NCBI RefSeq assembly: GCF_964340395.1
Contig: NC_135559.1
Location: 19,539,150 to 19,603,149 of the forward strand
Length of the DNA stretch: 64,000 bases
Direction of reading: 5' to 3'
DNA from: Glandiceps talaboti
Taxonomy: Eukaryota; Hemichordata; Enteropneusta; Spengelidae
The notes beneath the pieces are model-generated. The model made no database searches. It saw nothing but the letters and a program-made list of their open reading frames with translations, and had not been told where the DNA came from. The number at the start of each line of letters is the position of its first letter. Within the stretch, counting starts at the first letter, position 1. Below, in pieces: positions 14,600 to 50,766 of the stretch. Made by a program: the position numbers and the translations under genes.

Positions 14600-15230
14600 T
14601 ACATGCTCGCTGCACCCTGCGTTCTTACCTCTGACCTTTTGTGTTGCAATAGGTGGTTGGACTCAAAATATACCATCTTGCAAGTCATCGCACGTTCCTG
14701 CTGCCCTCTGTAATTGTATGATTGCATACTGTGACCCGCCGGAACCTAGTACTAGATAGGTACTACCATAAATAAGACTGATATGATCTGATTCTGCATA
14801 CCCGATAGTGTCTAGGTGTGGTACTGTCTTTATTCAGGAAACCGAAAAGGTAAGATTTTCTGAATTTAGAAATAGATGGACCAAATTATATTTTGTAGAG
14901 GATATAAGACATCATCATATCCCTCGCTATGCACGTCTAAATATTTCAGCAGCCTTTTCGCCTTCACTATTATCTTTTTTTACAGATTTGTGTACACGGA
15001 CTTCATGCCAAGAACGGGTTTATCAATAATTGACAGATCAACACACCTTTGTCAGCCATCAAATACCGACATTGCTGCTTGTAACAACATTCAAACTGTA
15101 CGTACAATCCTAGATGTGATTGGCGAAATGTCATCAGGCTAGGGTGTATGTATTCGGTACAGTTGGAATTATTTTTTCCTTAAATTGGGTAATATTTAAT
15201 GGGTTTATGACAGTAGAATTTCTTTTTGAA
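14600..15230. repeat. Dispersed repeat A, copy 1
   Basis: Collinear with 26440-26970, with 27850-28227 continued at 32404, and with 48660-49300. Landmarks are CCCGATAGTGTCTAGGTGTG, GGAAACCGAAAAGGTAAGAT, TATATTTTGTAGAG, TCAATAATTGACAG and ACCGACATTGCTGCTTGTAA. It includes a splice-donor-like AAAGGTAAGA, but the open frames are short and broken between copies, so I do not call it an exon. Confidence 0.75.
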
Positions 15231-20235: not shown

Positions 20236-20891
20236 CGCATCACCTAAACATAAGTGTCGATTCGGGCGCTTAAAAAGCAAACAGCAACAACAACAAAAAC
20301 ATTTTTGGTGCAGTTTCACATAATGACAGAAAAGAGGATAACACGATATGAGATCTTGATAGCATATCAAACAGTACTGTGAACAGATCGATGCAGCACA
20401 CGGAAAATCATAAATATTCAAATTTAAATTTAAAAATGTGTAAAGATTTATATATCAACCTGTGTGTCTGTCAACTATAATACTATTATGTTTCTTATAC
20501 AGGTGTTACTGGAATGAGCAGGAAGACTTATAGCCTACAAATCAAAGCCCCAGTACATCAGAATTTCGGAGACATCCTGTTGGCATTGACAAAGTCCATT
20601 TTTGATTAAAATACAACGAATTTTAAACAAGGAGTGAAGAAAGCCATTTATATCAGGGCATTCAAACCACCATCAAACAGAGAAACAGGACCACACTAAC
20701 TTCCTGGCATCCGTGACCCTTATTAGTCACGTGTTCTAAATAGTGAGTCAATCTGTTCACAAAGACAATCGTATTTTCTACAATTTCTGGCAACAAGTTT
20801 AGTTTGTGTTACGAACAAACGTCTACCTTAAAGTTAACGTTTTTACCAATACAGGTGAAATTTCGCCAGAAGAATTATAGAAGATAAGGCT
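20003..20891 (+). promoter_or_regulatory. Conserved 5' flank of sulfotransferase copy 1
   Basis: About 890 bp of upstream sequence is conserved with 53920-54739, and its 3' half also with 40730-41282. It contains CATTGGTTGCACACT, a CCAAT-box-like inverted motif, then a (CA)n tract (20200-20230). TTTCTTATACAG at 20491-20502 resembles a 3' splice site and recurs before all three coding copies. GTCACGTG near 20738 is E-box-like, and TGAGTCAAT near 20752 is AP-1-like. The splice acceptor suggests a leader intron ending about 390 nt before the ATG; this is inference from conservation only. Confidence 0.5.
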
Positions 20892-21875
20892 GTGAACAAA
20901 ATGAAACTGAAGAATAGATTGCTACAACTTTTTATCTTATCTCTTATCTTTATCTTTATCGCATATTGGATAATTGTCCGTTCTGGAGATGGAACAAAAA
21001 CAAAGTACGAACGCAATTGTCTCCAGCTGCCCCACGAGCACAACGACCAACACATGACCCAGGTAACGGACAAGCAATTATATGGCACACGAAATATCAG
21101 TCAAAGTGGTGCAAACGTTCTAATCGTCGCTGGAATGCGTAGTGGTTCTTCTTTTGTGGGACACTTCTTTCAGTCAAATCCCAACTTTTTCTATTTATTC
21201 GAACCTTTAATAGGCTTCAAGGACATCGGATCATGGCCTCGGATTTCTGTTGATGGAGTGAACACATTAGCTATGATGTATAACTGTGACTTTAGTGGTA
21301 ATGTAACATATTGGAAGAAGTACTTCAATTGGCTCACCAATGTCTGCCATTGCTTGCCAATATCTGGGAGAAACAGGTCGACGGAAATATGTCATTATTC
21401 TCTCCCTACCGATGCTGGACGTTGTTGTAAAAACGCACAACACAGGGCTGCTAAAATAATCCGTCTGCTGGATGTCAGAGATCTTATTCCGTTAATGGAA
21501 AGTCCCGATATCAACCTAAAAGTCATCAACGTGGTCCGTGATCCGAGATCAATGATGTCATCGTTGATGCCGGTTTACTACTCCAATTGGAGTTTTAACA
21601 AAAAAGAGAATAGCAAGATCCGAGATGTTGGTGACCTAAACGAGTACCTAACTGATATCTTGAAACAGTATTGTGAACAGATGCACAGAAATTATATTTT
21701 ACTAAATGCAAACACTTTATTGGCACATGCTTGGAAAGAAAATTTTATAGTATTGCGTTTCGAAGATATTGCCCTAAATCCGAAGAAGTATGCTGATATC
21801 ATGTACTCTCATGTTGGAATCGATATTGACAAAAAGGTGTATGAATGGATCGACAAAAACACAAATGCCGCATAG
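20892..21875 (+). CDS. Carbohydrate 6-O-sulfotransferase-like, prematurely truncated copy 1
   Basis: Encodes a type II Golgi-like membrane protein of the CHST1/3 family, whose members move sulfate from PAPS to the 6-OH of sugars in secreted glycans. Residues 10-29 form the membrane anchor. The 5'-phosphosulfate loop is GMRSGSSF (81-88). The 3'-phosphate site is VVRDPRSMMSS (214-224). Sequons include NVT, NRS and NWS. The start matches the intact paralogues. An in-frame TAG at 21873-21875 ends it at 327 residues, against 390-392 in paralogues, where that codon is GAG, CAG or AAG. The residue 150-175 loop differs strongly from the other copies. Either a recent pseudogene or a truncated product; loss of the conserved C-terminal SSAVINDW helix region argues against activity. 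Confidence 0.85.
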   Translation: MNKMKLKNRLLQLFILSLIFIFIAYWIIVRSGDGTKTKYERNCLQLPHEHNDQHMTQVTDKQLYGTRNISQSGANVLIVAGMRSGSSFVGHFFQSNPNFFYLFEPLIGFKDIGSWPRISVDGVNTLAMMYNCDFSGNVTYWKKYFNWLTNVCHCLPISGRNRSTEICHYSLPTDAGRCCKNAQHRAAKIIRLLDVRDLIPLMESPDINLKVINVVRDPRSMMSSLMPVYYSNWSFNKKENSKIRDVGDLNEYLTDILKQYCEQMHRNYILLNANTLLAHAWKENFIVLRFEDIALNPKKYADIMYSHVGIDIDKKVYEWIDKNTNAA

Positions 21876-22088
21876 CACCAACATGGTGGTTTTGGGGAAA
21901 GGAGGAACTCGTCAGCTGTGATCAACGATTGGCAGAATAGAATGACCTTTAACCTTGTGAAGAAGATCCAGAATTATGCTGTGTGTCGGGAATATATGAG
22001 TCAACTGCAGTACAACTTCGTTGAGAATGTATCTATGTATAAGAATGAAAGCATTGGTTTACTGAACCTACTTGGAAACCAAAATTAA
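21876..22088 (+). pseudogene. C-terminal coding remnant beyond the premature stop of copy 1
   Basis: The frame continues open after the TAG for 70 codons and ends at TAA 22086-22088. It encodes the family C-terminus: HQHGGFGERR, SSAVINDWQNRMTFNLVKK, and an end resembling the intact copies. No frameshift or second stop interrupts it, so the nonsense change is the only visible lesion. GERR is shared with the remnant at 46182, whereas the two intact genes have GTAK. Confidence 0.85.
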
Positions 22089-22154
22089 AAACTATAAACA
22101 ATGAAATTTATTTAGGTGACTTCATAATTTATGTTTAGAATCAATCTGATTGGA

Positions 22155-26439: not shown

Positions 26440-26970
26440 ATCAAGTATGTATGTATACAGTGACCCGGGAGAACCTAGTCCAAGGTGCTACTATATACAG
26501 GACTGGTGGATCTGATTTGACATACCCACCCGTGTCTATGTGTTGTACTGTCTGTCTGGAAACCGAAAGGTAAGCTTTGCTGATATCCTTTCTGAATGCT
26601 GAAATAGATAACCCAGTTATATTTTGTAGAGAAAATAAGACATCAACACATTCGACCCCTTCCCATCTACTTCTACAGATTTAGCAACCTTTTCCCCTTC
26701 ACTATAAATGTTTTTAAACGGATTGCAGGGCGCCAACAGCGGGTTTCATCAATAATTGACAGATCAACTTACATTTATCAACCATCGAATACCGACATCG
26801 TTGTTTATAAGAACATTTCAACCGAATTTGTTAGAGTTGGAATTTCTTTCTTCATAGATTGTGGAAATATGGCACAGACGTATGACAGTCGGATTTGCTA
26901 GGTTTATTCACTATTCATATTTATATGGATATGGTAGATATTTTATGAATCACCATTAGAATCTTTAATA
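26440..26970. repeat. Dispersed repeat A, copy 2
   Basis: Diverged relative of 14600-15230 and 48780-49380, with GGAAACCGAAAGGTAAG, TTATATTTTGTAGAG and TCAATAATTGACAGATCAAC in order. Non-coding. Confidence 0.7.
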
Positions 26971-26973
26971 TGA

Positions 26974-27355: not shown

Positions 27356-27571
27356 TTAAGAAATGAACTTGAGAGAAATAGCTGGGATCTCCGGATCCAT
27401 GCCTGCATCCCGGTTTAGGGCGGGCTTCCTTTGATGAATAAATATGCCTTCCTTCAACCTGCATCTGTACAGTTTCTCTTCTTCATCCATGATTTTGACA
27501 TTCTTCATGCCACACTTATGTTGTGACTTCATCAAGTGTTTTTCATATTGCTGATATAATGGTTGACGCAC
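27356..27571 (-). pseudogene. Possible GIY-YIG endonuclease C-terminal fragment (Penelope-like)
   Basis: The minus-strand frame reads RLKEGIFIHQRKPALNRDAG. It resembles the end of the GIY-YIG endonuclease domain of Penelope-like retroelements, where a Glu in E-x-I-x-I and an Asn in LNRD are conserved. It is short, lies on the strand opposite to the Penelope-like reverse transcriptase relic at 44420-46115, and has a partial paralogue at 48125-48230. Homology is inferred from pattern memory only. Confidence 0.4.
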
Positions 27572-28227
27572 ACTGATAAGTTCTCTTTAGCGAATGCCCG
27601 GTGGTGGTGGTCTAGTCGTCTTACTCAGTTACTTACTTCAGAAAGACCACTAATGTATGGTATATCAATAGAGATGTGTTGTTGCCCTGTGTCTGGGTGT
27701 CTGTGTGTCATGCCTTATGTCTTTCTTCTTTGGTATCGTCAATGACCAAGGTTATAGCCATTGCTCCTCAGCTCTGTCTTGATGTGTCCAATTTCCTCCT
27801 TTTCGTCTCATCTTCGTCAGTTACTGGTGTCTTTGGTCATGACATTAGTGTTCTCACCTCTGATTTATGTTATAATAGGTGGTTGTACTCCCAATTTACC
27901 ATCTTTATTGAAATCATTATGCAAACCAGCGCATATATGCCTACTGCCTTCTGTAATTGTATGATTGTATACTATGATGGGCCCCGAAACCTAGTCCTGG
28001 GTACTACCATATATAGGACTGATGTGACCTGATTTGACATACCCGATAGTGTCTAGGTGTGGTACTGTCTTTATTCAGGAAACCGAAAAGGTAAGATTTT
28101 CTGATATCTTTTCTAAATTTAGAAATAGGTGGACCAAATTATATTTTGTAGAGGAAATAAGACATTATCATATCACTCCCAATATACGTCTACATATTTC
28201 AGCAGCATTTTTCGCCTTCACTGTAAT
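27360..28227. repeat. Duplicated block, left part (paralogue of 48123-49036)
   Basis: Near-identical to 48123-49036 apart from small indels; includes repeat A copy 3 up to the LINE insertion point. Short shared open frames (for example from 28034 and from 48843) reflect recent identity and do not indicate a conserved protein. Confidence 0.85.
28218..28227. repeat. LINE target-site duplication, left copy
   Basis: TCACTGTAAT, repeated at 32394-32403 and present once in the empty paralogous site at 49027-49036. Confidence 0.9.
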
Positions 28228-31200
28228 TGTAATTGTAATTGTAATTGTAATTTATTTACCCATCACAAAAAAAAAAAAATACATAACAATTGAAAGCATA
28301 TAATACACAATGTGTGCATAATTGTATCAGAGCGGGCGAGAGGCTAGAAAATAGTTTCTATAACTAATCTAGTCTAGCCACTCAAAACTCATACACTAGT
28401 ATAAATATTACAATGAAAAAAAAAGATCAGGTGACTGCTGCAAAAACTCACAAACTACATACTGTACATGAAAAATGAAAATGAAAATGCGCGAAAATTT
28501 TACATATTTACAAGAAGAAACTCTTGAATTTGTGTCTGCTTGGGTGACTGCGAATTGTATATGGAATGTTGTTCCATATCTGTGAACCAGTGAACTTGAC
28601 AGAAGACTGACCAAAATTACTCTTGTATTTTGGTACATGGAGGTCTCCTCTCAATTTCCGCCTAGTATCAGGACAATGTTCGATATTCGAAAAGTAGTCC
28701 TTGAAGTGTGGCGGAAGTTTATCGTGTAGTACATCATGAACAAAAATTCCAATCTGATAGTCAAACTGTTTGTATATATCAAGAATACTGAGCTTTTTAA
28801 ATAAAGGTGCCGTATGTGCATTACATTTACTTTCCGTAATGACACGAACAATCCTTTTCTGTGCAAGTAAAATCTCTTTGATATATGTTTTACACGAACT
28901 TCCCCACACTTCAAGGCCATAGGAAATGTGTGGTAATACAAAGGTATTGTACAACATTAGGAGAGTTGAACATGGGACCAGTTGTCGAAGCCTGTAAAAT
29001 ATTCCAGTAAATTTACAGATCTTTTTCTTTACGTCTACAATGTGAGTTTTCCAAGTTAAATTACTGTCTAGGTGAATCCCAATGAACGATGTGCTGTTAG
29101 CTTCTCTAACCACCCTGTCATTAAGAGTTATAGACCCAATTACTTCTTTACTGTTTTGTTTACTTCTAATTACCATGTGTTCTGTTTTATTTACATTCAT
29201 AGTCAGTCGGTTAGCATCACACCATTTATTTACCTGATGAAATTCAACATTAGCTAGATTGAGGGATATATTGTTATGGGTTTCCTGGATAGAATGAAAT
29301 AAGTTTGAATCATCTGCATAAAGCTTAAAATTGAAAAGATTGGAGGAATTTGGAATGTCGTTTATGTATATCAAGAATAAGATAGGTCCTAGGATTGACC
29401 CCTGAGGGACACCACAGGTAATATTTAATCTGCTTGAAGCTATATTATTGATGCTGACATACTGACTCCGTGAATGCAAATAACTAGAGAACCACTTGAG
29501 TGGTAAACCTCTGATTCCGTAATGTTCAAGCTTTGCAAGTAAAATATTATGGTTTACAGTATCGAAAGCCTTTGAAAAATAGATAAAAATACCAAGTGTT
29601 GAATTTCTCTTATCAAGCTCTTCTTGTAAAGATTGAATCAAACTAATCAAAGACAATTTACAACTGTACTTCTTCCGAAAACCGTATTGATGGTCATATA
29701 AAATGTTAAATCCCTCTAAGAAATTCATCAAATGTTTGTTTGCAATTCTTTCAACAATCTTGCTGATAACAGGTAAAACGGAAATGGGTCTATAGTTTCC
29801 AGGTTCATTTATCTGACCCTTCTTATAAAAAGGTAACACTTTGGCTACTTTAAGGAGTTCTGGAAAATGACCTGAACAGAAAGACAAATTAATAATGTGA
29901 CATAGAGGGTTTGATATTTCCTCTCTACCTTCGTGGATTAACTTGCAAGGGATGTCATCAAAACCTGTTGCTTTGCGTATATCCAATGCAGAAATAGTAT
30001 TGACAATATCAAGTTTGGTAACAGGGTAAAAGAAAAAGGAATGAGGAACTTTCTCACCCAAGAAGTCGTGAAACGTTGTGTTCGGGGAAGTGGGTATTTT
30101 ATTAGCGAGATGTACATAAAAATTATTAAAATCTTCCGTAATATCATCCAGGCAAGTGTGAATTACTTCTGAACCATTACAGTTAATCTTCAATTGTCTT
30201 GGAATAGTTAACTGTTTGTGTTTTGATTTACCAATTAATTCGTTTATAACTCCCCACGTCTCCTTTATTTTGCCATTATTAAGTGAGAAAACATTTGCAT
30301 AATAATGGCATTTGCTTTTCCTTAGAATAGTGGTGAGAACGTTCCGGTATTTCTTGTAATGGTTATATAACGTTACATTGAAACGACTGTTAATGACCTT
30401 CTTAAACAGCTTGTGTTTTGTTCTAACTGACTTAAGTATTCCAGGTGTCAACCACGGCTTGACTCGTTTCTTTTTCTTTGAGGTACGTATACACTTCAAA
30501 GGAGCATGTTTGGCAATGATATCTTTGAACCTATCAACAAAATGTTGTAAAGCTAAATTTACATCTTTGCATTGCAAAACCTTTTCCCATGTTTCAGCAT
30601 TCAACTCATCTCTAAATGCCTGCCCATTAAACTTTGAATAGTCTTTTATCAATGTTGTAACTCCAGTTGTGGGTGGTGTTTTCACTGAATTAAAGAATAT
30701 AAATATCTGAAAATGATCTGAGATGTCAGCAGTAATAGTACCTGAAGAAATGGACCTGTCAGCTATGTTTGTGTACAAATGATCTATGGTAGAACTTGAA
30801 TTCTGTGTTTTCCTAGTAGGAGTACTTATAGTTTGTTTAAAATGAAAACATGCAAGTGTATCAATAAGTTTGCGGGCACTAGGGTTCGTTTCTTTGCTCA
30901 CATCAATGTTGAAATCTCCAATAATAACACATCCGCTATATTTTCTTTCACTCTCACTTATATAATTTTCTAAACTCTCTACAAAGTCGTTAACATTAGA
31001 ATGTGGTGGTTTATACACAGCCCCAACTAGGAAAAATCTATTTTCAAGTTCTACTTCGATCCACAGAGTTTCTGTATTTGTAATTGTAACATTGCTCAAC
31101 ACAGTATATGACAAAGACTCGTGTATATACATTCCTACTCCTCCACCTTTACCTTGGTCTCTACAGTTAACAACAAAAGAATAACTAGGCATATTATACA

Positions 31201-32393
31201 TGTCTTTGTTTGACACTTGCCATACTTCAGAAAGAGCGATAATTCGAAATTGATTTCGCAAAGAGTGTTCATATAGCATATTGAAATTGTCATAGTTCTT
31301 GTTAAGTGATCGAACATTGATATGTGAGACGGAGAAAGCGTTCTCTGTATTGCTGAAAGTTGTGTTGAATTTAGCTAGTGAGTATTCCGCACAGCTGATG
31401 TCAAAAATGTCTTCTTCAGTGATGTTGTTATTCACTGGCATAAGTGAAAGAGAAATTCGATTACCTGATAAGGATTAATGACGGAAAGCGGGAAGAGAGG
31501 ATACATTGGTTTAGACAATTTTGATAAGGTCATGTTCATTTCTGATATTGATTACGGTAGTTGCGTCAAACTTCTTTCCGTAGATAAAGCCGTTTCTTGT
31601 CCACAGGTATTTATAGTTTAAGGCCTTTCGTTTTTCATTCGCAGACTTCAGTAGTTTTCGTGTTGTTGGTGTTAGGTTTTCATTTATGTATATTCTGTTC
31701 TTCTCTGTATAGCCAAGTGTGTCAGTAGTTGTGTTGATTATTTTCTTGTTATTTTTATAGACGGAATCACGTATCTTTCTGCCAGAGAACTTGACAATGA
31801 TTGGTCTTGGTCTCGGTTTCGGTGTGCTTGGATCCCTCTCTGTGAATTTGCGGCCAATTCTATGGGTGACTTCGATATTATTTGGGGTGATGCCTGGGTC
31901 GATTTTCTGTAGTACCCTAATGACAGTTGCGTCGGTGTTTTCATTGGCTTCGTTGGTTTCTGGGATTCCATGAATTTCAATATTTTCTCTCCGGCTATAT
32001 TGGTTTTGATCTTCAAGAGCTTTCTCTCGATCGGCCACTTGTTTAGTGAGTTCTTCATTCTTTTCCTTGGTTACTTTGTTCTCGCTTTCTACTGTGGCAA
32101 TTCTTGTTCTGAAGTCTTCAAAGAGTGAATTGAAGTATTCTAGCGAGGCAGATGTAGTATCCTGGCATTCCTTTATGTCATTGACACTTTTCAGAAGTAC
32201 TAGTATGTAGCTAACCTGGAGGCTGATTTCAGTGAGCCGTTGATCAATGGAGACACCAGATGTTGCTGAAGCTTGTGTGGTTTCCTGATTTGGTTCAGTA
32301 TTTGGTGATCCTGACGGAAATCGCTTTTTCTTGCATTTTTGGCACAAATGCAAGTCACCCTGAGTAAACGTAACACCCCTAGATTTATCACAG
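28228..32393 (-). mobile_element. CR1/Jockey-superfamily non-LTR retrotransposon, 5' truncated
   Basis: A 4166-bp insertion on the minus strand carries ORF1 and ORF2, 69 bp apart and in the same frame. Its 3' end, at the left, has a short A-rich stretch and a microsatellite tail of ATTACA units. It is flanked by TCACTGTAAT duplications. The paralogous empty site at 49027 continues directly into TATTTTGTTGTATATA, matching the right flank (CATTTTGTTGTATATA). Tandem-unit tails rather than poly-A fit CR1/L2/Rex1-type elements; the precise clade needs a tree. ORF2 is uninterrupted, so the insertion is fairly young. Confidence 0.92.
28508..31441 (-). CDS. LINE ORF2: AP-endonuclease and reverse transcriptase
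   Basis: 977 residues, the usual length for this class. The N-terminal third is an apurinic-type endonuclease: SHINVRSLN near residue 40, ALSEVWQ with its catalytic Glu, IIGDFNID, and a SDH box. The centre is reverse transcriptase: GNYRPISVLPVISKIVERI, YGFRKKYSC, FSKAFDTVNH, CGVPQGSILGPILFLIYIND and LYADDSNLF, with YADD at 708-711. It nicks target DNA and copies the element RNA in place. The motif A residue before FSKAFD, normally Asp, is Tyr 621 (TAT at 29579-29581), a single-base change that should abolish polymerase activity. The C-terminus is the conserved WNNIPYTIRS-type tail domain. Confidence 0.95.
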   Translation of the reverse strand: MPVNNNITEEDIFDISCAEYSLAKFNTTFSNTENAFSVSHINVRSLNKNYDNFNMLYEHSLRNQFRIIALSEVWQVSNKDMYNMPSYSFVVNCRDQGKGGGVGMYIHESLSYTVLSNVTITNTETLWIEVELENRFFLVGAVYKPPHSNVNDFVESLENYISESERKYSGCVIIGDFNIDVSKETNPSARKLIDTLACFHFKQTISTPTRKTQNSSSTIDHLYTNIADRSISSGTITADISDHFQIFIFFNSVKTPPTTGVTTLIKDYSKFNGQAFRDELNAETWEKVLQCKDVNLALQHFVDRFKDIIAKHAPLKCIRTSKKKKRVKPWLTPGILKSVRTKHKLFKKVINSRFNVTLYNHYKKYRNVLTTILRKSKCHYYANVFSLNNGKIKETWGVINELIGKSKHKQLTIPRQLKINCNGSEVIHTCLDDITEDFNNFYVHLANKIPTSPNTTFHDFLGEKVPHSFFFYPVTKLDIVNTISALDIRKATGFDDIPCKLIHEGREEISNPLCHIINLSFCSGHFPELLKVAKVLPFYKKGQINEPGNYRPISVLPVISKIVERIANKHLMNFLEGFNILYDHQYGFRKKYSCKLSLISLIQSLQEELDKRNSTLGIFIYFSKAFDTVNHNILLAKLEHYGIRGLPLKWFSSYLHSRSQYVSINNIASSRLNITCGVPQGSILGPILFLIYINDIPNSSNLFNFKLYADDSNLFHSIQETHNNISLNLANVEFHQVNKWCDANRLTMNVNKTEHMVIRSKQNSKEVIGSITLNDRVVREANSTSFIGIHLDSNLTWKTHIVDVKKKICKFTGIFYRLRQLVPCSTLLMLYNTFVLPHISYGLEVWGSSCKTYIKEILLAQKRIVRVITESKCNAHTAPLFKKLSILDIYKQFDYQIGIFVHDVLHDKLPPHFKDYFSNIEHCPDTRRKLRGDLHVPKYKSNFGQSSVKFTGSQIWNNIPYTIRSHPSRHKFKSFFL

Positions 32394-32437
32394 TCACTGT
32401 AATCATTTTGTTGTATATATATTTTTAACGCCAACAA
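31511..32437 (-). CDS. LINE ORF1: coiled-coil RNA-binding protein, 5' truncated
   Basis: An open frame of 308 residues. From the N-terminus it has a Cys-rich remnant (DCDKSRG then LCQKCKKKR), probably half of a zinc finger. A coiled coil at about 95-145 follows (ESENKVTKEKNEELTKQV). Then comes an RRM-like region starting YSRRENIEIHGIPE and a basic C-terminal domain (IIVKFSGRKIRD, YINENLTPTTRKLLKSA), typical of LINE ORF1 nucleic-acid chaperones. The first 14 codons, including the only Met, lie outside the element, to the right of and within the target duplication (32394-32437). The native start is therefore missing. Confidence 0.9.
   Translation of the reverse strand: MLALKIYIQQNDYSDCDKSRGVTFTQGDLHLCQKCKKKRFPSGSPNTEPNQETTQASATSGVSIDQRLTEISLQVSYILVLLKSVNDIKECQDTTSASLEYFNSLFEDFRTRIATVESENKVTKEKNEELTKQVADREKALEDQNQYSRRENIEIHGIPETNEANENTDATVIRVLQKIDPGITPNNIEVTHRIGRKFTERDPSTPKPRPRPIIVKFSGRKIRDSVYKNNKKIINTTTDTLGYTEKNRIYINENLTPTTRKLLKSANEKRKALNYKYLWTRNGFIYGKKFDATTVINIRNEHDLIKIV
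32394..32403. repeat. LINE target-site duplication, right copy
   Basis: TCACTGTAAT again, immediately before the CATTTTGTTG flank. Confidence 0.9.
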
Positions 32438-33130
32438 CGGGTCCGTGTCAATAATTGACAGTTTAACGTACCTTTGTCAGCCATCAAATACCGACGTTGC
32501 TGCTTGTCACAATATTCAAATTGTACAATCTTTGATGTGATTGGCGAAATACCATCAGGTTAGTGTGTATGCATTCGTTAGATTTTGAATATTTTTTTTT
32601 CGATAAATTGGAGAAATATGTCATGGATTTAATTTATGACAGTAGAATTTGCGAGGTTTCTTCACAATTCAAATATTATAGTATTATAGTAGGTGATAGT
32701 AGTAATTCATGAATCAAAATTAGAATATTTAATATCGGTTAAATACCAAATACACATTAGCAAATGTGGAATTCTGGACAAAAAGTAGTTGACATCGAGT
32801 TTGACCCCACTCAATGAAGAAAAATTAGACAATATATACAAATAGACAACAAGATAAACTTACAAATAATAAAGAGATGGCAACGATACATAATGACCAT
32901 GATATAGAATTCAAGTAATGGCTATGTATGTATCCTCTGCTTCCAATTTGCATGTAAATATAACTAATATTACATGACTGTATATGTACAGTGTGCCAGT
33001 ATTTAGATAGTTAAGTTTAGTGATAAACCTTACTCCCAACTCTCAACTAAAGGATAGGGCTCAAAGTTTACAGTGCATTGAAATGACCAAACATTAATGT
33101 ATAATACAGAGCTATTTATTGTAAACTAAT
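32404..33130. repeat. Duplicated block, right part (paralogue of 49037-49780)
   Basis: Resumes the paralogy interrupted by the LINE. Near-identical to 49037-49780. It lacks about ten bases (around ACGGACTGCA) just right of the insertion that all other repeat A copies keep. Confidence 0.85.
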
Positions 33131-33715
33131 AGTTAAACTGTCACTATACGAAAAGGCATATTTAACCTCCTTGATTGGGGATGGGTAAAGGTGGGTTAAA
33201 TTTCAAGGGGTATATTTGTCCACATGAAATAGTTACTACTGTCTCCTGTCTTTATCAGGGGTAGAATATGAGTGTCAAAGTACCACATATTTAACTTTGT
33301 TTGCTCACATACACCAGGTGGTAAACTTGCCACTTTTTTACACTGTTTAACACGGCTGGTAAACATGACACAGTACCACCTTTACCATGCCTTTATATCT
33401 ACGAATAGATAATGGTAAACTGTGATGTTTGTATGAAGTACATTAGTCAATCCTTTCACGACCCCTTTCAATGGGGGTATATTATGGTTTATATGCATAT
33501 ATTACAACAAGTCACAGTCTTTACATTTACCTCATACTAACTAGTCGTAAATCACAAGTCACATTTCCACCTTTATCCAGAAGGATTACATTACCATATG
33601 TATCACAGATTTACACACTGGTTAAACTATTGTTGTATGCGCTTATACATTTGTATGACAAAAGCCCACGTTTACTATACTAACTAACCTTGGAAAAAGG
33701 CATGGCAAATCCTGT
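33131..33715. other. No gene recognised
   Basis: AT-rich. Scattered early decayed units of the following tandem array may be present. No coding support. Confidence 0.45.
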
Positions 33716-40729: not shown

Positions 40730-41282
40730 GTGCCGTGAGCTGAAAACATGACATAATGTCAGAAAAGAGGATATTGATGACATATCAAACAGTACTGTGA
40801 ACAATAGCAACTCAAGGTAAATTATAAAACAAATATTTAAACTTAAAGATATGCAAACATGTATATAACAACCTGTGCATGATGTCTATCAACTATGTGT
40901 ATTATTTTGTTTCTTATACAGGTCTTACTGGAGTGAGCCTACAAGTCAAAGCCCCAGCACATCAGAATCTCGAGGACAGTCTAATGGCACTGATAAAGTC
41001 CATTCTTGATACAAATACAAGGAATTGTGATGAATAGGGACGAATAAAGCCATTTATATCAGGGCGTTCAAACCATCATCAAACAGACAAGCAGGACGAC
41101 ACTTACTTCCAGGCATCTGTGACCCTTCTAAATAGTGAGTCAATCTGTTAACAAAGATTGTTGCGTGTTGTCAACAATTTCAAGTATCAATTTACGTTAG
41201 TTTTAGGAGCAAACGTCTCCCTTTATATTTTACCAGTACATGGTGGTGAAATTTCAACTGAAGAATTATAAACTACAAGGGT
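40730..41282 (+). promoter_or_regulatory. Conserved 5' flank of sulfotransferase copy 2
   Basis: Shares with copies 1 and 3 the phrases CAAACAGTACTGTGAACA, TTTCTTATACAG (acceptor-like, ending 40921), GCCCCAGCACATCAGAATC and AAATAGTGAGTCAATCTGTT. The further-upstream CA-repeat part seen in copies 1 and 3 is missing. Function is inferred from conservation. Confidence 0.5.
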
Positions 41283-42461
41283 ATGAATAAAAATATGAAA
41301 GTTAAGAAGATATTGCTGAAACTTTTTGTTTTGCTATGGGTCATCGTCATCGCATACTGGACAAGTGTACGTTCTTGTGATAGAACAAACACACAGTACA
41401 ATCGCGATCGGTTCCCAATGTTCAAAGAGTCGATGTACAACGAAAAAGTCATGACCCAGGTAACGACGCAGAAATACGGCACACGAAATATCAGTCAAAG
41501 AGGTGTAAACGTTCTAATCGTCGCTGGAATGCGTACTGGTTCTTCTTTTGTTGGGTACTTCTTTCGTTCGAATCCACACTTTTTCTATTTATTCGAACCT
41601 TTATTAGGCTTCAAAGACATCGGAATATGGCCTCGCATTTCTGTAGACGGAGTGAACACGTTGGCCGTGATGTATAACTGTGACTTCAGTGGCTATGCTA
41701 AACATTGGAACAAATATTTCAATTGGCTCTCGCCAAAGACTAGAGGCAAAAAATCGATCGAACACTGCCACGCTTTAGGCTATAGCAATGTTGGAAGTTG
41801 TTGTAAAAACGCACAACACAGGGCTGCTAAAATAATCCGTCTGCTGGATGTCAGAGATCTTATTCCGTTAATGGAAAGTCCCGATATCAACCTAAAAGTC
41901 ATCAACCTGGTCCGTGATCCAAGAGCAATGATGTCATCGTTGATGCCGGTTTATTACTCAAAATGGAATTTTAACAAAAAACAGAATAACAAGATACGAG
42001 ATGTTAGTGACCTAAACGAGTACCTAACTGATATCTTGAAACAGTACTGTGAACAGATGCACAGAAATTATATTTTACTAAATGCAAACACTTCATTGAC
42101 ACATGCTTGGAAAGAAAATTTTATAGTATTGCGTTTCGAAGATATTGCCCTAAATCCGAAGAAGTATGCTGATATCATGTACTCTCATGTTGGAATCGAT
42201 ATTGACAAAAAAGTGTATGAATGGATCGACAATAACACAAATGCCACAGAGCACGAACATGGTGGTTTTGGAACAGCAAAGAAATCGTCAGCTGTGATCA
42301 ACGATTGGCAGAGTAAAATGACCTTTAACCTTGTGAAGAAGATCCAGAATTATGCTGTGTGTACGGAATATATGAGTCAACTGCAGTACAACTTCGTTGA
42401 GAATGTATCTATGTATAAGAATGAAAGCATTGGTTTACTGAACCTACTTGGAAACCAATGA
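41283..42461 (+). CDS. Carbohydrate 6-O-sulfotransferase-like protein, intact copy 2
   Basis: 392 residues in one uninterrupted coding exon, close to the usual size of CHST1/3-type Golgi sulfotransferases, which sulfate the 6-OH of Gal, GlcNAc or GalNAc using PAPS. It is a type II protein: anchor at about residues 10-28 (LLKLFVLLWVIVIAYW), then a short stem. The 5'-phosphosulfate loop is GMRTGSSF with R84. The 3'-phosphate site is LVRDPRAMMSS with R211. A C-terminal FEDIALNPKKYADIMYSHVG block and SSAVINDWQSKM helix follow. Two Cys pairs (ending SCC near 169) may form disulfides. The stop TGA is new: about 20 bp present in copy 1 after GGAAACCAA is deleted. Acceptor substrate unknown. Confidence 0.93.
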   Translation: MNKNMKVKKILLKLFVLLWVIVIAYWTSVRSCDRTNTQYNRDRFPMFKESMYNEKVMTQVTTQKYGTRNISQRGVNVLIVAGMRTGSSFVGYFFRSNPHFFYLFEPLLGFKDIGIWPRISVDGVNTLAVMYNCDFSGYAKHWNKYFNWLSPKTRGKKSIEHCHALGYSNVGSCCKNAQHRAAKIIRLLDVRDLIPLMESPDINLKVINLVRDPRAMMSSLMPVYYSKWNFNKKQNNKIRDVSDLNEYLTDILKQYCEQMHRNYILLNANTSLTHAWKENFIVLRFEDIALNPKKYADIMYSHVGIDIDKKVYEWIDNNTNATEHEHGGFGTAKKSSAVINDWQSKMTFNLVKKIQNYAVCTEYMSQLQYNFVENVSMYKNESIGLLNLLGNQ

Positions 42462-46129: not shown

Positions 46130-46496
46130 TATTAACATACATATTCATTGGTTGCACACTGAATATTCATGACTCATAATTGCTGATATCATGTACCCTC
46201 ATGTTGGAATCGATATGCACAAAAAAGTGTATGAATGGATCGACAATAACACGAATGCAGTAAAGCACCAACATGATGGTTTTGGGGAAAGGAGGAAATC
46301 GTCAGCTGTGATCAACGATTGGCAGAATAGAATGACCTTTAACCATGTGAAGAATATCCAGAATTATGCTTTGTGTAGGGAATATATGAGTCAACTGCAG
46401 TACAATTTCGTTCAGATTGTATCTACGTATAGGAATGGAAACATTGGTTTACTGAACCCATTTGGAACCAAAATTAAAAACTATATAATCAACTAA
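46130..46496 (+). pseudogene. Sulfotransferase remnant: upstream flank fused to C-terminal codons
   Basis: 46130-46180 matches the upstream flank of copies 1 and 3 (ATTCATTGGTTGCACACT). From 46182 the sequence jumps straight to the C-terminal coding region, in frame: ADIMYPHVGID, KKVYEWIDNNTNA, then FGERRKSSAVINDWQNRM. The anchor and both PAPS-binding motifs are absent, so no enzyme can be made. One base is missing near the end (GGAACC against GGAAACC), shifting the tail to KIKNYIIN before TAA at 46494. The 3' flank (CTCTCCCCTTACGTCATAAT) matches that of copy 1 near 22525. Confidence 0.9.
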
Positions 46497-46519
46497 ATCC
46501 CTTTAGCTGAGGTCATTTA

Positions 46520-47629
<1,110 letters not shown>

Positions 47630-48122
47630 GTTTACCTTTTAGACAATGAAATATTTAGTTGTCTATCATCTGGATAGGCTGTTTTAAGTTATACTCCTGA
47701 AACGGTGTAAATTAGCAACTCCTAAAAAGCTACTATAAACGCAGTCGTTGCTTGGGATTGCACTGTGACACTTTTTATTTTGAAAAAGCTAATAAGGTTG
47801 TACCACTAGCAGCAGGACAGATATAAGGGATCACACATTGTCGAGATGTTGTAATGTCAAAAGGGATTGAAGTGTGGTAGAACGAATAACACATTGTGTA
47901 TTCATAGAGAATTAGACGATTTTGGCAAAAGGCAAGTATCAGGAATAAAGCACATTCAAAACATAGAGTATCACGCGTAATTGAATGTTCATGGACTCTG
48001 AGTTCATACTTAGCGATGACATTCCTACTCATAGAGTCAAAAAGATTCTTGGAAGCGAATCCTAAAGTTTCACCAAAGTCTATTCAGAGTCGTCAATGGA
48101 CTATTGTCCGAGACACGTGAAC
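47630..48122. other. Duplicated non-coding block
   Basis: 47640-47840 is the paralogue of 24680-24925. The rest shows no gene. Confidence 0.55.

Positions 48123-50766
<2,644 letters not shown>

Follow-up and report, generated by a model that had tools for sequence, protein, structure and literature searches.

A LINE insertion and its paralogous empty site within a tandem sulfotransferase region of Glandiceps talaboti

The strategy of reading an insertion against a paralogous empty site is reportedly to be credited to Le et al. In comparisons of this kind (RESites), the flanks of an element are aligned to a paralogue that lacks the element to show the insertion and to set its boundaries, as described in excerpts of two reports (PMC2213677; PMC4067079). 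The CR1/L2 groups of LINEs include elements with an ORF1 of the LINE-1 ORF1p-like kind, for example type II, which comprises coiled coil, RRM and CTD (2yko-like), with or without a PHD (PMC4120745, in part). LINEs with short repeat tails have also been described, and UnaL2, the L2 LINE of the eel, ends in TGTAA repeats, for which slippage in the course of reverse transcription has been proposed (PMC3747384); the hexamer ATTACA, which forms the tail of the element described here, does not occur in that paper, the one searched for it.

In the window analyzed here, i.e., the whole stretch of 64,000 nucleotides (64 kb), the ten-base sequence TCACTGTAAT is found on the plus strand at 28218 (28218..28227, at the element 3' end), 32394 (32394..32403, at the element 5' end) and 49027 (49027..49036, a lone unduplicated target), and has no further occurrence on either strand. 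The interval between the first two copies (28228..32393) comprises 4166 bp and carries LINE domains on the minus strand, so that the original prediction of a 4166-bp LINE between these two copies was right in its coordinates and in the nature of the element. The proposed flank alignment was carried out with 27360-28227 and 32404-33140 joined and compared with 48123-49786: it is continuous through the site, with 1440 of 1507 ungapped columns identical, which bears out the claim that 49027-49036 is a single target without the LINE. The signs of a deletion at 49 kb that had been named beforehand, element bases or removed flank, were absent, the 49-kb copy showing zero element bases and zero flank loss at the site. 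A chance match is excluded, since both ends carry an exact ten-base repeat and the alignment of the paralogous flanks, with some gaps, covers 868 bp (27360-28227) on one side and 737 bp (32404-33140) on the other. A LINE insertion of which the 49-kb copy displays the empty state, and which postdates the split of both copies, is thus supported. Filled and empty states are both present in the window as had been claimed; the sites are, however, paralogues and not the pre- and post-insertion alleles of the earlier wording.

The minus-strand 3' tail of the element consists of ATTACA units (TGTAAT on the plus strand) at 28222..28252, counted as 5.2 copies by TRF, one unit being common to tail and target. 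Within the target copy at 28218..28227, TCAC is certainly target, whereas TGTAAT is either target or tail unit. On the element strand, the junctions read ...ATTACAGTGA followed by CTGTGATAAATC... and ...ATTACA ATTACA followed by GTGAAGGCG. As ATTACA serves both as target and as tail unit, the target duplication is 4-10 bp long, with GTGA as its minimum and ATTACAGTGA as its maximum. At the other end, the siblings likewise have GA immediately before the truncation point, which makes two 5'-end bases ambiguous. The element ends, which had been announced as exact, therefore carry an uncertainty of 6 and 2 bp. For the 3' end of the LINE (28222-28420), the predicted RNA fold surpassed that of each of 200 shuffles (z -3.75, for one sequence only), and this end is a candidate recognition hairpin for the reverse transcriptase.

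Siblings of the element were searched for in the 590-Mb genome (47 contigs). With the 5'-terminal 894 bp as query, 15 places matched, namely the copy itself, three near-identical siblings (C8 and C27 at 99%, C5 at 98% over partial length) and 11 places at 64-71%. The 3' 573 bp gave at least 41 scored matches, at least 35 of the 41 (own copy included) being at least 92% identical and at least 26 starting past the first query base, as expected from 5' truncation; with 40 of 129 candidates scored, these counts are lower bounds. The ATTACA tail is visible in 27 of 30 loci (own copy included), the remaining three being relatives at 74-78%. C8 and C27 differ from the copy at 28228..32393 by 0.53 and 0.75%, respectively, and both begin at one common point, some 328 bp beyond its own 5' end. 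Their ORF1 starts MPKCNDCDKSRG, with MPKCND preceding CDKSRG, whereas the copy at 28228..32393 starts inside the sixth codon of ORF1. Taken together, the start of C8 and C27 further 5' and the own start within codon 6 identify this copy as truncated and lacking the start of ORF1. We take the LINE family to have been recently active.

Two minus-strand frames make up the coding content of the copy: ORF2 (28508..31474; 988 aa between stops) and ORF1 without its first six codons (31511..32392; Baculo_FP_2nd). Profile searches placed Exo_endo_phos (E 1.1e-13) and RVT_1 (E 3.9e-31) in the same ORF2, and ORF2 matched solved non-LTR reverse transcriptases, best 8c8j and also R2 proteins. The structure 8c8j is labelled RNA-directed DNA polymerase, and we take it to be human LINE-1 ORF2p. 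ORF1 matched the LINE-1 ORF1p structure 2yko weakly (E 0.00081); neither ORF1 of this copy nor that of C8 gave a match to PF02994, by which Pfam represents L1-type ORF1, and no PHD model in Pfam matched the Cys-rich ORF1 start of C8. The self-comparison lists zero matches of at least 100 bp between the two ends of the element that could represent LTRs. The element thus shows the features of a non-LTR retrotransposon, namely RVT_1 without LTRs, an APE-type endonuclease in the same ORF, a target-site duplication against an empty site, and copies that are truncated at differing 5' points but have the 3' end in common, and by its sequence the element is a young copy of an APE-type LINE family. In the window, no second copy of the LINE proteins was detected at E up to 1, and Rfam (gathering threshold) and tRNA scans gave no matches. 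Among viral contigs, five stretches fitted a pattern for ORF2 relatives and none was confirmed.

The first Asp of RT motif A is catalytic. In the copy at 28228..32393 this motif reads FIYFSKAFD, a Tyr replacing the first Asp of 8c8j, R2 (9nl3) and the siblings C8 and C27. Moreover, the copy is without 12 bp and 13 bp that are present in all three siblings (C8, C27 and C5), and the 13-bp deletion accompanies an altered C-terminus of ORF2, which spans 988 residues as compared to 999 and 1000 between stops in siblings. Both ORF1 and ORF2 frames are open in C8 and C27, and C5 is split into three frames of at least 150 aa. Stop-codon accumulation was simulated for the copy, and the sibling comparison takes the place of that simulation. 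Given the ORF2 lesions, the missing ORF1 start and the Tyr in motif A, the LINE copy is predicted to be inactive, and probably is.

The length of the target duplication was also compared across the family. In the 18 siblings that could be read at both ends, anchored matches had a mean of 3.33 bp as compared to 3.11 bp in mismatched pairs (permutation p = 0.26), a weak test, as the compared window lies inside the tail in at least five of them (the interrupted-tail siblings L034, L043, L051, L054 and L055). These 18 were taken from 30 loci; the 12 that were dropped comprise the own copy, eight with the 5' end outside the fetched stretch and three distant relatives without the GTAAATAA landmark. 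Two siblings that inserted into other repeats have paralogous empty sites: for L045 (G000:C8:27675455-27675748), 28 places cover nearly all of the joined flank, all eight examined are empty, and comparison with them gives a duplication of 3-4 bp, while for L040 nine places span the join and the four examined give 2-3 bp. Joined-flank searches for L042 and L048 returned only themselves. As the siblings showed no long duplications in the weak test and two resolved sites lie at 2-4 bp, either a repeat of 10 bp is exceptional in this family, or a 4-bp duplication stands beside an ATTACA that was present in the target by chance or guided the insertion. L045 also carries an extra ATTACA, i.e., a tail unit, between target and truncated 5' end, which is absent from all eight empty copies examined and possibly represents a template jump or filler.

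Four related units are present on the plus strand of the window: the filled unit F (left part 27360..28227, right part 32404..33140), the empty unit E (48119..49786; 95.6% identity with F in 1507 ungapped columns), and the LINE-free units C14 (14621..15221; near the target, about 84.5% identical to both F and E) and D26 (26472..26971; 74-75% identical to F and E, with some bases missing just right of the target). A genome search with 582 bp from the left flank of the unit found seven matches, of which four are these units (100, 94, 79 and 78%) and three are partial and located elsewhere (70-78%). The remaining matches between the two blocks, sulfotransferase genes included, are 73-89% identical and changed in order, apart from one 38-bp repeat match at 92%, and the homology partner changes at 27360-27362. 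Because the unit stands out at 95.6% from surroundings of mostly 73-89%, these comparisons date the time at which the unit of about 1.6 kb split or was last exchanged, and not one block duplication.

A clean empty site alone is insufficient to order insertion and split, because a precise deletion between the target copies leaves an identical site. The LINE could then predate the split, the 49-kb copy having lost it via recombination between the 10-bp direct repeats, which yields the same single clean target copy. However, C14 and D26 are likewise LINE-free, and the private divergence of the LINE, 18 of 4154 columns (0.43%) against C8 and C27 or 12 of 3568 with C5 added, is far below the divergence of F and E, which differ in 67 of 1507 columns (4.4%); even the nearest sibling is only 0.53% different. 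When polarized by C14, the F/E changes comprise nine specific to F, eight specific to E and two unclear. The LINE (18/4154) differs from the F lineage (9/567) with Fisher p = 0.003, 567 being the F-C14 column count and the three-way count at most 567, and from half of the F-E differences (33/1507) with p = 1.2e-8. The 0.43% is an upper limit, as private changes may partly predate the insertion and the LINE could be younger, and unit divergence could have been altered by gene conversion between units. Deletion at 49 kb was thus rejected on the empty C14 and D26 and on the age test, and such a loss must be regarded as very unlikely, the least probable of the readings weighed here. Insertion after the F/E split is supported by the low private divergence and the empty C14 and D26. 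The earlier dating consequently stands as to the order of events and has to be narrowed as to the reference point, at which the units of about 1.6 kb diverged or last exchanged sequence, instead of the duplication of the whole mosaic block.

The heterozygosity of some marine animals is high enough to cover an identity of 95.6%. The units at 28-33 kb and 48-50 kb could in this case be two haplotypes, true alleles that the assembly misplaced in tandem, and the abrupt beginning and end of the unit would fit. We consider this highly improbable, as the surroundings are far more diverged and differently ordered and two further units of the same kind are present in the window. By contrast, it is rather probable that the likeness of F and E derives from gene conversion or from a later copying of about 1.6 kb, in line with the difference in identity between the unit and the neighbouring duplicated stretches and with the partner switch at 27360-27362. 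Uneven constraint could also raise identity in the unit, yet no frame of at least 150 aa is listed there outside the LINE. Gene conversion or late copying would refine the insertion scenario and is not an exclusive alternative to it: the relation to the blocks would be indirect and the insertion still later.

The units are followed by sulfotransferase ORFs at 20.9, 41.3 and 54.7 kb, the one downstream of the filled unit being located at 41262..42461 on the plus strand. A 66-bp core on the plus strand is identical in C14, F and E (14797-14862, 28038-28103 and 48847-48912) and contains a GTAAG donor-like site; it is a candidate for a promoter or a non-coding first exon ahead of the sulfotransferase ORF. 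From this GTAAG-bearing core and the sulfotransferase ORFs downstream, the LINE probably lies antisense in the first intron of a sulfotransferase gene. A TATA-like word is found upstream of the core in two of the three units (C14 otherwise being about 84.5% identical). The first sulfotransferase ORF (20859-22136) is interrupted close to the C-terminus by a single in-frame stop (NTNAA*HQHGG) and is probably a decaying copy, whereas the 41.3- and 54.7-kb copies are open. A fourth sulfotransferase gene fragment, its 3' part only, was found at 46181-46650, and a further sulfotransferase about 8 kb outside the window (L009:8387-9555) is 93% identical to the 41.3-kb copy as compared to 80-89% for the listed pairs inside the window.

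With a high degree of confidence, we propose that an ATTACA-tailed APE LINE family inserted a 5'-truncated antisense copy by target-primed reverse transcription into one of the four units (about 0.5-1.6 kb, in a tandem sulfotransferase region) after its split from the 48-50 kb paralogue. The plus strand would be nicked after TCACTGTAAT (or TCAC), whereupon the target hexamer TGTAAT would pair with the (AUUACA)n RNA tail and prime reverse transcription; synthesis would halt inside codon 6 of ORF1, and the 5' end would be joined at the GA microhomology, the 48-50 kb paralogue retaining the unoccupied target. Full pairing of target and tail is not needed within the family, as the duplications of L045 and L040 are only 3-4 and 2-3 bp long. 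At the position of the hexamer, C14 has TATTAT and D26 TATAAA as compared to TGTAAT at the insertion site, thus TGTAAT may date from the common ancestor of F and E. That this substitution created the complement of the tail, which then primed and drew the LINE insertion, is a speculative and rather unlikely extension; if true, the pre-insertion history of the target would show tail-primer pairing choosing the site.

Compared with the described systems, the element resembles the CR1/L2 groups in having APE and RT in ORF2, an ORF1 with a weak match to LINE-1 ORF1p, a short tandem-repeat tail and 5' truncation, which provides a lead, by shared features, towards a CR1/L2-like family. UnaL2, compared by its tail only, likewise ends in short tandem repeats, although with the pentamer TGTAA instead of the hexamer ATTACA. 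The insertion offers one data point on target priming by hexamer-tailed LINEs, leaving the general understanding of LINEs unchanged, and can serve as a marker of polymorphism within the species. As in RESites, homology between the filled unit and unit E spans both sides of the insertion while the element is absent from the latter; here, however, the empty copies are located within the same gene region and 64-kb window, and siblings provide a relative age. The filled state together with three LINE-free units in one window, and siblings that date the insertion, make this a well-resolved case. Paralogous empty sites are established evidence, and with the copy at 28228..32393 a known kind of case gains a new, clean example.
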